The translations under genes and the position numbers were made by a program. Source: Pontibacillus chungwhensis (GTDB lineage: Bacteria; Bacillota; Bacilli; Bacillales; BH030062). From it: a stretch of DNA of 64,000 nt. The stretch spans positions 3,968,001 through 4,032,000 of the forward strand of contig NZ_CP126446.1 in NCBI RefSeq assembly GCF_030166655.1. The letters run 5' to 3'. Shown piece by piece: positions 33,961 through 44,807 of this stretch. The notes under the pieces were generated by a model, which saw nothing but the letters and a program-made list of their open reading frames with translations, had not been told where the DNA came from and made no database searches. Every line of letters starts with the position of its first letter. The first letter of the stretch is position 1.

Positions 33961-35481
33961 ATGAAAGAGAACAGCCATTTAGCTAATGAAGAAACGTTGT
34001 GGATGAAGCAAACGGATTTGCCTGAATTTGAGTCGCTTCAAGAAGACATCAGGGTAGATGTGGGCATTGTTGGGGCTGGTATTACGGGAGTGACACTCGC
34101 TTACCTGCTCTCTAAAGAAGGGCTAAGCGTAGCTTTATTGGATGCCGACCGAATCCTTCAAGGAACTACAGGTCATACGACAGCTAAAATAACCGCCCAA
34201 CACGACCTTATTTACGATGAACTCATTCAGCACTTCGGAGTTGAACAAGCCCGGACCTATTACCGAGCCAATCAAGAGGCTCTTGAATTTATCGAACGTA
34301 TCGTCAGAGAACATAAAATCGACTGTCAATTCTCAGCTGAAGACGCTTATATTTACGGGATTAGCGAGGAGAATAAACGAAAAATCGAGTTAGAGGCTAA
34401 AGCCTATGAGACACTGAACATTCCTGGGAAGGGGTTAGATACGATCCCTCTTGATCTTTCTATAAAGAAAGCCATTGTTATGGAAAATCAAGCACAATTT
34501 AATCCACTCTCTTACTTACACTACCTTGTCAAAGAGATGGAGAACAAAGATGTTCACATTTATGAACATACTGTAGCAACAGATATTGAAGAAGGCACCA
34601 ACCCACGCATCGTAACAAAAAATGGGGCAAAGGTGACCTGCGGCTCTATCGTCTCCACTTCACACTTCCCTTTTTATGACGGAAAAGGGTTCTTCTTCAG
34701 CCGCATGTATGCCGAGCGTTCCTATATTGTAGCGGCTAAAACGAACCAAACTCTTGATGGCATGTTTTTGAGTGCGGACGATCCAAAACGTTCATTAAGA
34801 ACAACTACATTTAAAGACCAGTCGTATGTGTTAATTGGAGGAGAGAGTCATAAAACAGGACAAGGGAAACCATCAAAGCAACACTTTGATGCTTTACTAG
34901 ATTTCGGGCGCCGTCATTTTGACCTTACTGGCGTTTTATATCAGTGGGGAGCCCAAGATCTGATTACGTTAGATAAAGTTCCTTACATCGGTCACTTAAC
35001 CTCCCGCCATTCTAACTTATTCGTTGCTACTGGTTATCGAAAATGGGGGATGACCACCGGGACTGCAGCAGCCTTATTGCTTAAGGATATGATTCAAGAA
35101 AAGAACAATCCTTATGAAGACCTGTTTACCCCTACACGCTTCTATGCAGACCCTAGCATCAAGCATTTTGTTACGCAAAATGCGAACGTCGCAGCCCAGT
35201 TCTTATCAGGTAAGTTGAATCTTCAAGCCCGGTCGGTTGAGGATCTCCGTCCTGGTAAAGGGGCGACTGTTATTCATAAGGCTCAAAAAGCTGGTGCTTA
35301 TAAAGATGAAGATGGGCATACTCATGTGGTGGATACTACATGTACGCATCTTGGGTGTGAGGTGGAGTGGAATCAAGAGGAGCGGTCTTGGGATTGCCCT
35401 TGTCATGGTTCGCGGTTTTCTTATGATGGAACGGTTCTTGAGGGGCCGGCTGACCAGCCCCTCAAAAGGATTGAGGAGTGA
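33961..35481 (+). CDS. FAD-dependent oxidoreductase fused to a C-terminal Rieske domain (YhfW-like)
   Basis: A 506-residue two-domain protein. The DAO-type flavoprotein domain (residues about 28-390) opens with [21 protein letters not shown] and ends with [18 protein letters not shown]. The Rieske domain (about 420-506) has both cluster motifs, CTHLGC and CPCHGS, so a [2Fe-2S] centre with two Cys and two His ligands is expected. The same fusion is known as YhfW in B. subtilis, function undefined. The second of two consecutive ATG codons has the better spacing to AAGGAGG. Monocistronic. A family A repeat begins about 50 bases after the stop. Confidence 0.88.
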
Positions 35482-35534
35482 TCAAGAAGACTCAAAGCTT
35501 AAAAGGTTGGGGCCTAAGCGTTTGACAGTGCTTA

Positions 35535-35657
35535 GGGGGCTGGGGAACGACTCGCTTTCCGCGGGCGAGCTGTCGAGCCTCCTCGGGCAAAATTCGTGCC
35601 CTGCGGGGTCTCGTCGACCTCTTTCTCCCGCAGGAGTCTCCCCGTTCCCCAGCCCCC
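35535..35657. repeat. Family A long inverted repeat
   Basis: The outer arms GGGGGCTGGGGAACG (35535-35549) and 35643-35657 are perfectly complementary. The sequence is very close to the copy at 30547-30663, with changes that preserve pairing. Open frames through it on both strands reflect the repeat only. Confidence 0.85.
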
Positions 35658-35697
35658 TTTATTAAAGTGAGAGAATCGGCCCGGCTGCTTAAGCTTT

Positions 35698-41218: not shown

Positions 41219-41458
41219 ATAATTACTCCTCTCCGAAAATTTATCTTGGTGTTATGTAGATCGATTGTTGGGAAGTTTTAGTGTCCTATACCTTTACCCC
41301 CTAAGTGGTTCAGTAAACAAGTTGATTATTTTTAACAAGATTCGGAATAAACGGAACGAACGTAACATTCTTTATAAAAGCATCCTTTTAACTAAAAAAA
41401 TTACAATCATGAAACAAGAACCCCCTAACATATATTTAGGAAGAAGAGGTGATGCCTT

Positions 41459-41899
41459 TTGAAGGAAAAGCAATCTCAGGTAAACTGGGAAAAGTTCTCG
41501 AAGACCATTGACCAAGTGCTAGGCCAAGACTTTTGGGATGATATGCATCATGTTATTCCAAAGAGAGGACCCGCTTATGATCTCTATGATGCAGAAAACC
41601 ATCTCATTGTAATCGTAGACCTTCCGGGGCTTGTCTCATCTGAGCACCTTACTTTAAAACAAAATGGAACCAACCTAATTCTAGAAGGGCATGTCCCTGT
41701 AGCTTACCAAGCCTCTGACCAACAAACCCTTCATAAAGAACGATTCCAGGGTCATTACAAACGAACCATTCGGATCCCCTTTCACTTCACACCTGATGAA
41801 GTAACTTCTTCTTACAAGAATGGATTATTAGAGGTACGGATTCTTAAGCACAAAGACGAGGATACCATCCCCATTCATATGGAAGTAAACGAGGAATAA
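41459..41899 (+). CDS. Small heat-shock protein (Hsp20/alpha-crystallin)
   Basis: A 146-residue sHsp with the alpha-crystallin domain at about 45-140: GPAYDLYDAENHLIVIVDLPGL, then SYKNGLLEVRILK, the G-x-L signature, and a C-terminal IPI that fits the I-x-I docking motif used in oligomer assembly. The start is TTG, with GAGGTGATG upstream. It heads a cluster of spore-related genes and faces a second Hsp20 gene over a shared terminator. CotP-type coat proteins of B. subtilis have the same fold, so a coat role is as likely as a heat-shock role. Confidence 0.82.
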   Translation: MKEKQSQVNWEKFSKTIDQVLGQDFWDDMHHVIPKRGPAYDLYDAENHLIVIVDLPGLVSSEHLTLKQNGTNLILEGHVPVAYQASDQQTLHKERFQGHYKRTIRIPFHFTPDEVTSSYKNGLLEVRILKHKDEDTIPIHMEVNEE

Positions 41900-41906
41900 A
41901 TAAAGA

Positions 41907-41934
41907 AGAGCCCCATCTTAATGGGGGCTCTACT
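41907..41934. terminator. Bidirectional terminator between the two Hsp20 genes
   Basis: AGAGCCCCAT pairs with ATGGGGGCTCT with one bulged base, between two convergent genes. Its right end touches the stop codon of the minus-strand gene. Confidence 0.65.
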
Positions 41935-42406
41935 AGTATTGAATGTAAATATCACGGGTATCTTCTCTGGTATTTCGAGCAAGACGGACTTCTAGCAGTC
42001 CTTTTTTATATTGTGCGTGCACTTGCTTCTGATGGGGTTGCTCTGGTAAAGAGATCGTTTGAACGTCGCCTCCAGCCAATCCATGAACATATAAACGGCA
42101 GTTCCCTAACGACAATCTCAGCGCTTCAACATCAATCCCTTCAGGTATAGGAATCTTCACAACATAGTAATGATGAAGTTCTACTAGCTCATAGTCCAGT
42201 TGTTTAGAATGCTTAGATGGAGAGTGTTCAATAGGCATTGAACGTTTTTCATTTCCGAGTGGGTGACCCAGGGCTTGCTGAATCGTTTCTTGTATATACG
42301 TATCGATTGAGGATAAATCAAATGGTGCATTTCCTGTACCCGAGAAATTTCCCATCGTTTTTTGCATGGATTGTATCTGGTTAAACCAGTCGTTAAACTG
42401 TTTCAT
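41933..42406 (-). CDS. Divergent Hsp20-like protein (CotP/GerT-type, probable spore protein)
   Basis: 157 residues. The first 60 are a polar, family-specific N-terminus (FNDWFNQIQSMQKTMGNF). The rest is an alpha-crystallin-like domain with KIPIPEGIDVEALRLSLG and QYKKGLLEVRLARN, ending IYIQY, a possible I-x-I motif. The domain is more diverged than in its neighbour. GAGAGGATT precedes the ATG, which is only 33 bases from the start of the divergent gerP-like operon, so the two ribosome binding sites share one gap. The location argues for a spore coat or germination function. Confidence 0.72.
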   Translation of the reverse strand: MKQFNDWFNQIQSMQKTMGNFSGTGNAPFDLSSIDTYIQETIQQALGHPLGNEKRSMPIEHSPSKHSKQLDYELVELHHYYVVKIPIPEGIDVEALRLSLGNCRLYVHGLAGGDVQTISLPEQPHQKQVHAQYKKGLLEVRLARNTREDTRDIYIQY

Positions 42407-42439
42407 TGGTTAATCCTCTCTTCTAAAGGAGGTGTAAGC

Positions 42440-42643
42440 GTGAAAGACCTGCATATTGAACACTTTTCTGTAGAGAACATTACCCATTCGTCTGGAATTT
42501 TCTCTGGAACCAATGTCCAATCATCTTTCTCCTCCTCCACACATATTAATGAAGGAAACGGCGCCATCACAGGTGAAAGAAACCAAATGGCTCACAACCA
42601 CCATGTGATTATAAGTCGCCCAAATGATCAGGATGATCAATAA
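42440..42643 (+). CDS. Small GerP-family-like spore protein
   Basis: 67 residues beginning at GTG with a strong AAAGGAGGTG. The N-terminal part LHIEHFSVENITHSSGIFSGTN follows the pattern of GerPB/PD/PE proteins: alternating hydrophobic strand, a Ser-Ser turn, then a hydrophobic pair and a Gly. GNGAITGERN resembles the middle of related proteins in this cluster. Its stop overlaps the next start (TAATG), so the pair is translationally coupled. Family membership is my reading from pattern and context; no catalytic function is expected. Confidence 0.6.
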   Translation: MKDLHIEHFSVENITHSSGIFSGTNVQSSFSSSTHINEGNGAITGERNQMAHNHHVIISRPNDQDDQ

Positions 42644-42987
42644 TGGGTTGGTTCCAGTCCAAAAAGAATAAAGAGTTAGAAAAGAAAATCTTAGAGTTAG
42701 AGTTGGAAATCAGACGATTAAAAAGCAATGAGTATGTTCCTGAAAAGGTAACGAAGGAGTATCATTTTCACATTGAACACATCGACATTCACAATCCAAA
42801 ACTAGATGACCTTTCCTTCCGTTTAGACTCACTGGATATTGAAGAATTGAGTGGTTCTTTAAATATGGGCAACAATTTCTCCAATTCTCCTGAACAGAAA
42901 CAAAAGAGGGATAAGAACTCTGAAAAGAAAACCATTTCTTCCACTCGAAACGGGTACGCCATCACCTTTCCACACAAGGAGGACTGA
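42643..42987 (+). CDS. GerPC-like coiled-coil spore protein
   Basis: 114 residues: an N-terminal coiled coil (KKNKELEKKILELELEIRRLK), then LSFRLDSLDIEELSGSLNMG, which lines up with the IEYKFDQLKxExLxGTLNIG block of GerPC proteins as I remember it, and a polar tail. GerPC is needed for access of germinants through the coat. This protein is shorter than GerPC of B. subtilis (about 200 residues). It is translationally coupled to its neighbours: it starts on the previous stop, and AAGGAGG for the next gene lies inside its end. Expected in the mother cell under sigma-K. Confidence 0.62.
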   Translation: MGWFQSKKNKELEKKILELELEIRRLKSNEYVPEKVTKEYHFHIEHIDIHNPKLDDLSFRLDSLDIEELSGSLNMGNNFSNSPEQKQKRDKNSEKKTISSTRNGYAITFPHKED

Positions 42988-42988
42988 T

Positions 42989-43282
42989 ATGGCCTTTCTT
43001 TCACCTAACTTTTTCATACGCTCTATTCGAATTGGAACCGTTGAGAGCGCATCTTGCGTAAATTTTGGAAACAATGCCCCTAATGGTTTTGAAAGTACTA
43101 AAAAACATAATCAGGGGTTTGGCTCCATTCACGGTGACGGAAATGATGTTAAAGGCATTCGTTCCCTATTGAATGATTCATCTTTCATGGATTTACTCTC
43201 ACAGTCTAAAGATCATGAAATCCCTCAATGGCTTCAAACAGCCATTGAACAGAAAATTGCTCAAGAAGGTGTGGAAGAATGA
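42989..43282 (+). CDS. GerP-family-like protein
   Basis: 97 residues; FIRSIRIGTVESASCVNFGNN matches the GerPD/PB/PF start (hydrophobic strand, small residues, then a Gly-Asn turn). HNQGFGSIHGDGND fits the second conserved block found in all small proteins of this cluster. The C-terminal 40 residues (LLNDSSFMDLLSQSKDHEIPQWLQTAIEQKI) form a helical extension not present in the others. AAGGAGG sits within the previous gene. Its last 22 bases overlap the convergent gene. Confidence 0.6.
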   Translation: MAFLSPNFFIRSIRIGTVESASCVNFGNNAPNGFESTKKHNQGFGSIHGDGNDVKGIRSLLNDSSFMDLLSQSKDHEIPQWLQTAIEQKIAQEGVEE

Positions 43283-43512
43283 TTCGATGAACCTGAGCTA
43301 GATGACGTGTTTATAAATGGAGCATCCACAACATCATCGTCATAGATCACGTTCACATTATGATGAATGATGTTGTAATGCCCTACTACCGTTCCAAGCG
43401 CATAATTTTCTTTTGATTGGGTTTTCCAATAGTTCTGGGCATTAACCCCTACGAAAATGCCCGATCCAGCATGAATACTGTTCACATTAATGGAATCAAA
43501 ACAAATGGTCAT
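43261..43512 (-). CDS. GerPA/GerPF-like protein
   Basis: 83 residues. FDSINVNSIHAGSGIFVGVNAQ and NYALGTVVGHYNIIHHNVNVIYDDDVVD follow the gerPA/gerPF pattern, which has a hydrophobic strand, S/G-rich turn, G-x-N, a lysine/asparagine stretch and a final acidic D-D-x-VD motif. A serine-rich tail (NTSSSSGSSNHSS) follows. GAGGAAC precedes the ATG. It lies nine bases behind the next gene of the minus-strand pair and converges on the plus-strand operon, with overlapping 3' ends. Confidence 0.62.
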   Translation of the reverse strand: MTICFDSINVNSIHAGSGIFVGVNAQNYWKTQSKENYALGTVVGHYNIIHHNVNVIYDDDVVDAPFINTSSSSGSSNHSSTPS

Positions 43513-43521
43513 AGTTCCTCC

Positions 43522-43767
43522 TTAATACTGAACATTAGGCTGCGGGTTCGAGATCTCAGGGTTCGTAACCGGTGTATCTACGACATCATTGTCGATTAGG
43601 TTATTAAAGTTATTAATGGCAATGACAAATCCAATTGGCAACCCGGCTGAATAGTTATTTTTTCCCTGCCAGGACCAATCAGCTTGGTTGTTCTGACCTG
43701 TAGCAATGGTTGAGTTATCGTTTATGGCATTTACAGCAATCTGGTTAAAGACTACAGAAACAGGCAT
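43522..43767 (-). CDS. GerPA/GerPF-like protein
   Basis: 81 residues, a paralog of the following gene: VFNQIAVNAINDNSTIATGQNNQ, NNYSAGLPIGFVIAINNFNNLIDNDVVDTPV, with the same DNDVVD end motif and a polar tail. GAGGAGTGAG precedes the ATG. It is the first gene of a two-gene minus-strand operon. Function by family: small structural proteins that make the spore coat permeable to germinants. The assignment rests on the pattern rather than on a search. Confidence 0.62.
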   Translation of the reverse strand: MPVSVVFNQIAVNAINDNSTIATGQNNQADWSWQGKNNYSAGLPIGFVIAINNFNNLIDNDVVDTPVTNPEISNPQPNVQY

Positions 43768-43916
43768 TCGCTCACTCCTCTTAGTGTTATATGTACCTAG
43801 TGTATTCGATTGCGTATGAGGTGTGCGATGTAAGGTGGTTTAAAAAATTTAAATAAACATCTTGACCATTTGTGTGAGAAGAGTATGATTAAAGGATAGA
43901 TGAAGGAGGAATACTT

Positions 43917-44174: not shown

Positions 44175-44432
44175 AAGGTGGGCCTGGAAACCACTCGCTT
44201 TCCTGTGGGGAGCTGGTGAGCCTCCTCAGCCGGCATAGCCGGACTCAGGGGGTCTCTCATCACCTAGATTGAAATGTGCAAGCGTGGTGCCTAGGACCGT
44301 ACGGATAAGACAGCTTTTTGGAAAAGGCGTTTAGCCTTTGGAAAAAAGATGCCTTATCGCGCTAGGTCCTCCACGCTGGAACTAGACTGGCTCTTCTGCC
44401 CACGGGAGGCTCGCAGTTTCCAGGCCCACCTT
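44175..44432. repeat. Family A inverted repeat split by a family B element
   Basis: The outer arms AAGGTGGGCCTGGAAAC (44175-44191) and 44416-44432 are perfectly complementary. The left part equals the inverted right part of the copy at 1212-1340. Between ATCACCTAGA and ACTAGACTGG sits a B-type unit (about 44283-44381) with CGTACGGATAAGACAGC and GCCTTATCGCGCTAGG, flanked by CCTAGA/ACTAGA. Confidence 0.8.
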
Positions 44433-44514
44433 TGCCATATTTCAGTGAATGCAAACATGCCATTTAAAACCTTCCTTGAAACTAGCCTCAGGGCCGTTCC
44501 CCCTTTTATAGACA

Positions 44515-44640
44515 GGGCTTGCCCGGGGACTGCGAGACTCCCGCGGGGCAAGGAGCCTAGGGGAGACCCCACAGAGAGCGAAGCGAACGAGGAGGCTTCC
44601 CAGCTCCCCGCAGGAAAGCGAGTTGTCCCCGGGCAAGCCC
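44515..44640. repeat. Family A long inverted repeat
   Basis: A 16 bp perfect outer arm, GGGCTTGCCCGGGGAC (44515-44530) with 44625-44640. A 33 bp degenerate copy of the right end (GCGAATTGTCCTCGAGCAAG and following) is repeated at 44673-44705. No genes lie between 44064 and 44807; the open frames found there on both strands only follow the repeats. Confidence 0.85.
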
Positions 44641-44807
44641 AAGCACTCATACACGCAACGGCACCCACCAAAGCGAATTGTCCTCGAGCAAGCTCATGCA
44701 CTCATTAATCTTAATGGACCGTTTGCTATACCCTATTATTTCTCCACCTCTTCTCCCAAATGTTGCTATAATGAACTAAACAACGTAAAGAAAGCGGGTG
44801 GAGAGGT

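Follow-up and report, generated by a model that had tools for sequence, protein, structure and literature searches.

Dormant spores admit germinants through their coat, and how germinants cross it and how GerP proteins act remains an open question. GerP proteins are sigma-K-controlled and affect coat permeability (PMC2817736, PMC11841064), and a recent review describes them as coat proteins thought to form germinant channels (PMC11841064). In Bacillus anthracis, all gerP genes but gerPF are needed for fast germination, the latter being covered by two dispersed paralogues of overlapping function, gerPF2 and gerPF3; two orthologues of gerPF are likewise described for each of B. subtilis and B. 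cereus (PMC2817736). Coat removal rescues the B. anthracis operon deletion but not the gerPE or triple gerPF mutants, and gerP-null spores do germinate, later, for which the authors speak of "an additional entry point" (PMC2817736). Here we describe a cluster of seven genes from Pontibacillus chungwhensis, located at 41459–43767 of a window of 64,000 nucleotides (contig NZ_CP126446.1, positions 3,968,001 to 4,032,000), in which two small heat-shock protein (sHsp) genes accompany five genes of small GerP-related proteins. With moderate confidence, we regard it as a spore-coat module of the GerP type, strongly diverged and the second such set in its genome, which is produced in the mother cell and coupled to sHsps.

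The locus is similar to the gerPA–gerPF operon (PF10676, PF10803, PF10737) in that it combines GerP-domain proteins with a coiled-coil GerPC-type protein, displays a motif resembling sigma-K promoters in a form recognised post hoc and co-occurs with sporulation genes in all but one ambiguous carrier of the class, and two of its proteins (C6 and D7) carry a D-x-D-x-x-D block near the C-terminus, as GerPA does. Unlike that operon, it consists of two convergent operons with sHsp genes attached, all its proteins score below the Pfam GerP cut-offs, and GerPB, GerPD and GerPE counterparts are not assigned; its GerPC-like protein (PC) is about half as long as classic GerPC. The two sHsps are of the Hsp20 type, like CotM and CotP of B. 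subtilis, which are small heat-shock (alpha-crystallin) proteins, a comparison made by family description; the accessible parts of the cited literature contain no link of CotM or CotP to gerP genes. Similar to gerPF2 and gerPF3, the locus places GerP-family genes beyond the gerP operon, but, by published description only, it differs from them in comprising an entire group of genes, one of which encodes a GerPC-like protein; neither a GerPC-like partner nor an sHsp is mentioned for gerPF2/gerPF3 in the accessible text (PMC2817736). No GerP–Hsp20 locus and no short GerPC-like family is described in the accessible open literature (subscription papers lay mostly outside the search); one search finds a single paper that names gerPA as well as Hsp20, a genome report in which the two are listed separately. 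Dispersed gerPF copies are already known (PMC2817736).

Gene content and relationship to GerP

The first-pass annotation of the window had proposed two alpha-crystallin proteins and five GerP-like proteins, one of them GerPC-like, encoded within 2.3 kb by genes split between a plus-strand trio and a minus-strand pair. All seven open reading frames (ORFs) are present at the proposed positions, and their coordinates bear out the split. The features of the locus are as follows.

41408..41437, plus strand: sigma-E-like promoter motif 5' of sHsp 1, CATGA ... CATATATTT; the pattern is partly derived from the same sequences
41459..41899, plus strand: sHsp 1 (sH1), Hsp20/alpha-crystallin protein, 146 residues, TTG start; Pfam HSP20 E 2.4e-12, 47.3 bits
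41907..41931, no strand: hairpin between the convergent sHsp genes, an inverted repeat read directly; fold of 41900-41940 -16.3 kcal/mol, z -3.0; possibly a terminator serving both sHsp genes
41933..42406, minus strand: sHsp 2 (sH2), divergent Hsp20 protein, 157 residues; Pfam HSP20 E 9e-5, 23.0 bits
42440..42643, plus strand: A3, GerP-domain protein, 67 residues, GTG start; Pfam gerPA 17.4 bits, sub-threshold; hhalign to C6 99.1%
42643..42987, plus strand: PC, short GerPC-like protein, 114 residues, with a coiled coil and an LSGSLNMG block; hhalign to classic GerPC 97.4%
42989..43282, plus strand: B5, GerP-domain protein, 97 residues, with an additional C-terminal segment; sub-threshold Pfam gerPA match, classic GerPA and GerPF profile matches
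43261..43512, minus strand: C6, GerP-domain protein, 83 residues; hhalign to classic GerPA 83.2%
43522..43767, minus strand: D7, GerP-domain protein, 81 residues, leading the minus-strand pair; hhalign to C6 98.9%, to classic GerPF 43.8%
43798..43824, minus strand: sigma-K-like promoter motif 5' of D7, AC-N16-AATACACTA

A3, PC and B5 form a compact trio, in which the A3 stop codon and the PC ATG overlap by one base and PC and B5 are one base apart. C6 and D7, separated by nine bases, run towards B5, and C6 overlaps it by 22 bases. Thus, the layout is not that of the six-gene, single-operon gerPA–PF locus. Both sHsps exceed the cut-off of the Pfam alpha-crystallin domain family HSP20 (PF00011; 47.3 and 23.0 versus 20.8 bits), as the annotation would have it.

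In single-sequence searches, PF10676 (gerPA/gerPF) is the sole Pfam family listed for A3, C6 and D7 and the best one for B5, which has one other, weaker match. The pattern that the annotation had read in these small proteins is therefore shared beyond chance, although the scores (E 0.005-0.024, 15.3-17.4 bits) do not reach the cut-off of 27.3 bits. PC matches PF10737 (GerPC, a 174-position model) at positions 25-55 only (E 0.008, 16.6 bits, below the cut-off of 22.4), and this match is second to an equally weak one to the DivIC coiled coil (E 0.0064). In the genome of B. subtilis, included to control the Pfam searches, the classic GerP families are matched. Since all GerP matches of the window proteins lie below Pfam cut-offs, the family call requires relatives. 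These were taken from 30 named loci collected with D7 and from genome searches with PC and B5.

Profiles for which 30 classic gerP loci were the sole source were searched against all 5,468 ORFs of L004-L066; upon iteration the small-protein profiles merged members of GerPA, PB, PD, PE and PF. At E<=0.1, the classic GerPC profile finds 57 of 60 PC ORFs plus one B5 ORF, the GerPF profile 60/71 B5, 27/60 C6, 32/55 D7 and 10/47 A3 ORFs, and the GerPA profile 60/71 B5, 20/60 C6, 29/55 D7 and 14/47 A3 ORFs, counts that are not independent, as several of the loci are one place fetched twice. None of the six classic profiles matches an unassigned ORF among the 5,468 at this threshold.

For a profile–profile comparison with hhalign, the classic families were re-set by operon position and the new families de-duplicated (47 PC, 47 B5, 42 C6, 39 D7 and 33 A3 sequences), and each of five comparisons was accompanied by 40 column-shuffled profiles, which nowhere exceed 4.1%. 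PC aligns to classic GerPC at 97.4% (E 1.1e-11, 54 columns; shuffled controls <=0.9%) over the N-terminal coiled coil together with the LxGxLNIG-type block, EKIEYKFDQLKVETLEGTLNIG / EQLTFSLESLDIEELSGALNVG, and C6 to classic GerPA at 83.2% (E 8.7e-6, 60 columns; controls <=3.3%). Direct alignments of the other three to classic families are weaker (A3 55%, D7 44%, B5 33%, the last to GerPF; controls <=4.1%), but alignment to C6 gives 98-99% for each of the three. With any classic GerP family, the profiles of the sHsps reach at most 1%. Thus, five proteins of the locus are homologous to GerP, PC and C6 directly and A3, B5 and D7 mainly via C6. The family claimed by the annotation stands, both in sub-threshold Pfam matches and in profile comparison with shuffled controls, and its count of five becomes four GerP-domain proteins and one much shorter GerPC-like protein (114 residues in the window, 103-149 in relatives, versus 201 in the host's own classic GerPC). 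The host genome (4.17 Mb, spoIVA present) carries a complete classic gerP locus elsewhere (C1:911768-913724), and hence the module is a second set, which upholds the annotation's idea of a diverged second gerP-like system.

Variations on these architectures occur among the collected loci. Single proteins with tandem GerP-like domains are found in L101, L127 and L105; the one at L101:4750-5280 has two such domains and scores 26.6 bits, just under the Pfam gerPA cut-off of 27.3. A 681-residue frame at L126:813-2855 joins a PC-like N-terminus to a long, repetitive proline/lysine-rich tail (GRKxPPPIRPSGKTEN-type unit). Pfam GerPC is not detected in the PC proteins of L160 and L164. Five classic gerP loci (L067, L070, L073, L076, L085) have one or two extra GerPF-like genes adjoining them. 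In L128 (G013:C5:253400-261700) the new module is present, classic GerPC is matched only weakly and over part of its length (E 9.8e-5), and the classic set looks diverged.

Distribution, Hsp20 neighbours and gene fusions

Two other genomes retain the frames, order and strands, with protein identities of 37-72%. The annotation had called for a survey of this gene order in halophilic Bacilli, and the sH1–A3–PC–B5 block with the convergent C6–D7 pair is indeed conserved in 29 of the 30 named loci. sH2 is the variable element: 15 of the 30 lack it, 12 carry it where the window does, flanked by sH1 and A3, and two carry it beyond D7. The remaining locus, that of Paenibacillus solanacearum, has PC fused to B5 and no sHsp in the stretch. 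Genera with the locus include Halobacillus, Pontibacillus, Gracilibacillus, Cytobacillus, Sutcliffiella, Rossellomorea, Fictibacillus, Bacillus and Paenibacillus; Halobacillus halophilus and Sutcliffiella horikoshii are among the species that have it. The locus is therefore not restricted to halophiles, as Sutcliffiella, Cytobacillus, Fictibacillus and Paenibacillus are, we assume, not typical ones. Within the genus of the window genome, the Pontibacillus yanchengensis Y32 locus (L050) is in part identical to that of another genome (G006).

In the order Bacillales, B5 matches at E<=1e-3 are found in 83 of 348 genomes, some of them weak and probably due to classic GerP proteins. Of these, 55 are strong (62 bits or more), and in 54 of the 55 the stretch read contains a match to PC. 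Profile matches to A3, C6 and D7 are found in 55, 55 and 45 of the strong genomes, respectively, which are not orthologue counts, because these three profiles cross-match each other. Searches of plasmids and phages with B5 (tblastn) return no matches in either.

Among the 30 top-scoring loci of the order, 29 have an Hsp20 gene no more than 1.5 kb from B5, versus 1 of 30 classic gerPC loci in the same scan (p 1.5e-14), a favourable figure, since the top 30 are the nearest relatives of the query and the Hsp20 profiles come from such loci. Across all 55 strong genomes the proportion is 37/55. Hsp20 genes accompany 19 of the 20 further loci fetched in the search of class Bacilli (18 genomes; nine other strong ones left out), and 5 of the 6 loci fetched outside this class, where there are nine carriers. 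In L140, L148, L152 and L159, the Hsp20 gene is sited between GerP-like genes. The tie of GerP-like genes to sHsps is thus broader than the annotation had claimed, recurring in the order, in the class and outside it.

Gene fusions connect the same partners. PC and B5 form a single protein in ten loci (L066, L099, L107, L108, L111, L112, L114-L117; frames of 213-304 residues), eight of which share an I-[ST]-[VI]-x-I-x4-[VI]-P-[YF] block in the linker; in the L066 fusion, Pfam detects GerPC and not gerPA. None of the ten has a neighbouring Hsp20 gene. In genome G719, a PC-like part and an Hsp20 domain make up one 246-residue protein with no internal stop (Pfam HSP20 E 2.1e-12; PC part E 3e-11, 43 bits, by the new PC profile). 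Both kinds of fusion suggest contact between the partners. A second PC–Hsp20 candidate, a 309-residue frame in G734, was ruled out, as two stop codons separate what are neighbouring genes. The GerP-like cluster of L107 is flanked by genes that we read as lonA/ysxC and hemA, presumably a site near sporulation genes in Bacillus.

Sporulation genes and promoter-like motifs

The annotation held that its reading would suffer if the genes occurred in non-sporulating relatives; no clear-cut case of this kind is seen, and one carrier is ambiguous. In the order, spoIVA is present in 335 of 348 genomes, and none of the 13 genomes that lack it has B5, a small sample in which the absence is significant when all 83 matches are counted (p 0.044) and not when only the strong 55 are (p 0.24). 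Of the 398 genomes of class Bacilli, 269 have spoIVA (265 above cut-off). B5 carriers at E<=1e-9 number 55, the weaker of which may be classic GerP, and 54 of them have spoIVA (p 3.8e-9, uncorrected for relatedness); at 80 bits or more, the proportion is 30/31 (p 8e-5, likewise uncorrected). The exception, strong carrier G643, is a draft in 80 contigs that lacks spoIVA and SpoVAC and retains SpoIIIAC/AD genes.

Promoter-like motifs, patterned on the consensus letters of sigma-E and sigma-K promoters, were counted on non-redundant upstream sequences, with expectations taken from shuffles. The annotation's proposal of a sigma-K promoter search has a mixed outcome. Upstream of D7, AC-N15-17-[CA]ATANNNTA occurs in 20 of 23 sequences (0.39 expected), a post hoc count, since its AATA form was spotted while reading the sequences; the form GAATANNNTA, found in 18 of 23, was likewise spotted in these same sequences. 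A strict sigma-K pattern is present before classic gerPA, the positive control, in 16/24 (0.25 expected) versus 2/23 (0.14 expected) before D7, and a plain sigma-K -10 scan upstream of D7 is negative (2/23 versus 1.0 expected). Upstream of sH1, CATGA...CATANNNT is found at sigma-E-like spacing in 10/22 (0.04 expected), and upstream of A3, CATANNNTA is found in 4/23 (0.7 expected), the window not being among the four. Together, the sigma-K-like and sigma-E-like motifs point to the mother cell, the site of coat-protein synthesis. In B. subtilis, the sigma-K regulon, for which the promoter spacing has been given, includes gerPA as well as cotM (PMC517825).

Proposed role and alternative explanations

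Homology to GerP leads one to expect a similar coat assembly. In the sporulating mother cell, sHsp 1 would be made early from the sigma-E-like promoter and the GerP-domain proteins later from the sigma-K-like one. PC, with its coiled coil, may serve as the adaptor, binding B5 and, through it, the other GerP-domain proteins, as its sequence and fusions would suggest. The sHsp could keep these small proteins, rich in glycine and asparagine, in solution until their deposition in the coat, or else remain in the coat as a structural element. Once the spore is complete, by analogy with classic GerP, the assembly would most likely aid the passage of germinants and calcium dipicolinate (Ca-DPA) through the coat. 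Mother-cell timing, the physical complex, the coat location and the permeability role are all steps that we infer, and gene order, promoter motifs and the one PC–Hsp20 fusion are circumstantial support for the functional side of this picture, permeability and sHsp partnership alike.

A number of results weigh against this picture. No window protein passes a Pfam GerP cut-off or matches GerP in NCBIfam, and none is assigned to GerPB, GerPD or GerPE. Most of GerPC, its C-terminal part included, is missing from PC. AlphaFold2 gives no usable fold for C6 (42 rows) or B5 (16 rows), with mean predicted local distance difference test (pLDDT) values of 57.2 and 50.8, and the best match of a C6 profile (3 rows) to solved structures has an E of 0.41. 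The -10 elements before D7 are mostly AATA, versus the CATA of sigma-K promoters, and A3 has no clear motif upstream in the window. There is no Hsp20 gene in the stretch read in 18 of the 55 strong genomes of the order, which include nine PC–B5 fusion loci and two short contigs. The PC–Hsp20 fusion comes from a single draft genome, and its PC part is invisible to Pfam GerPC. Lastly, of the 9 genomes in the GTDB family only 3 have PC and B5, so the locus is dispensable and easily gained or lost.

This patchy occurrence also favours the chief alternative, namely that the locus encodes a structural component of the coat or outer layer that has no special part in germinant passage, is made of GerP-fold proteins and has the sHsps for its coat chaperones. 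Such a component would fit proteins this distant from classic GerP, a PC without the GerPC C-terminal part, and a genome that already has a full classic gerP locus; cotM and cotP, moreover, are listed as coat genes in PMC3533761. Against it, the pairing of GerPC with GerPA/PF is kept (in the form of PC and C6/D7), and no characterised relatives other than GerP proteins were found. We consider this alternative rather unlikely. The sHsps might instead be mere neighbours, mother-cell genes gathered in one region and uncoupled from the GerP-like proteins. Several lineages have the GerP-like set with no Hsp20 nearby, all ten PC–B5 fusion loci among them, and the promoter-like motifs of sHsp 1 and D7 differ; however, the link recurs in Bacillales, in other lineages of the class and in genomes outside it, Hsp20 genes are found between GerP-like genes in four loci, and one PC–Hsp20 gene fusion exists, and we hold an uncoupled neighbourhood to be improbable. 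The weak single-sequence Pfam scores and the Gly/Asn-rich composition could also be explained by a vegetative stress operon, in which the small proteins assist the sHsps or are their clients and resemble GerP by convergence. This seems to us very improbable, as column-shuffled profiles of the same composition fail to reproduce the match, sigma-K-like and sigma-E-like motifs are present, and spoIVA is found in 54 of 55 class carriers.

The reading of a divergent, sHsp-coupled GerP-type module can be taken further. Its carriers include halophilic Bacillaceae at one end and genomes that lie outside class Bacilli at the other, and, more tentatively, the module could be of ancient origin and wide distribution, an alternative to the coat pore of classic gerP. 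The sHsp, the short GerPC adaptor and the four GerP-domain proteins would then form one coat complex, with the sHsp as a dedicated assembly chaperone or a structural subunit, and provide a second, differently tuned germinant route. This larger version is possible, if somewhat doubtful; such a pore was perhaps overlooked because the model species B. subtilis may lack the module. A natural second set with four GerP domains, a short GerPC, and GerPC–GerP and GerPC–Hsp20 fusions points to specific candidate contacts between proteins of a GerP assembly. It also suggests a chaperone requirement, of which no report was found in the literature searched, and might bear on the delayed germination of gerP-null spores, on the assumption that the module is present in that species.

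Elsewhere in the window, GC-richer stretches at 44349-44708, 488-1180 and near 35237-35665 contain look-alike ORF peptides. The peptide RLPRGKE occurs in both 488-1180 and 44349-44708, and a short interspersed repeat seemingly recurs across the window.

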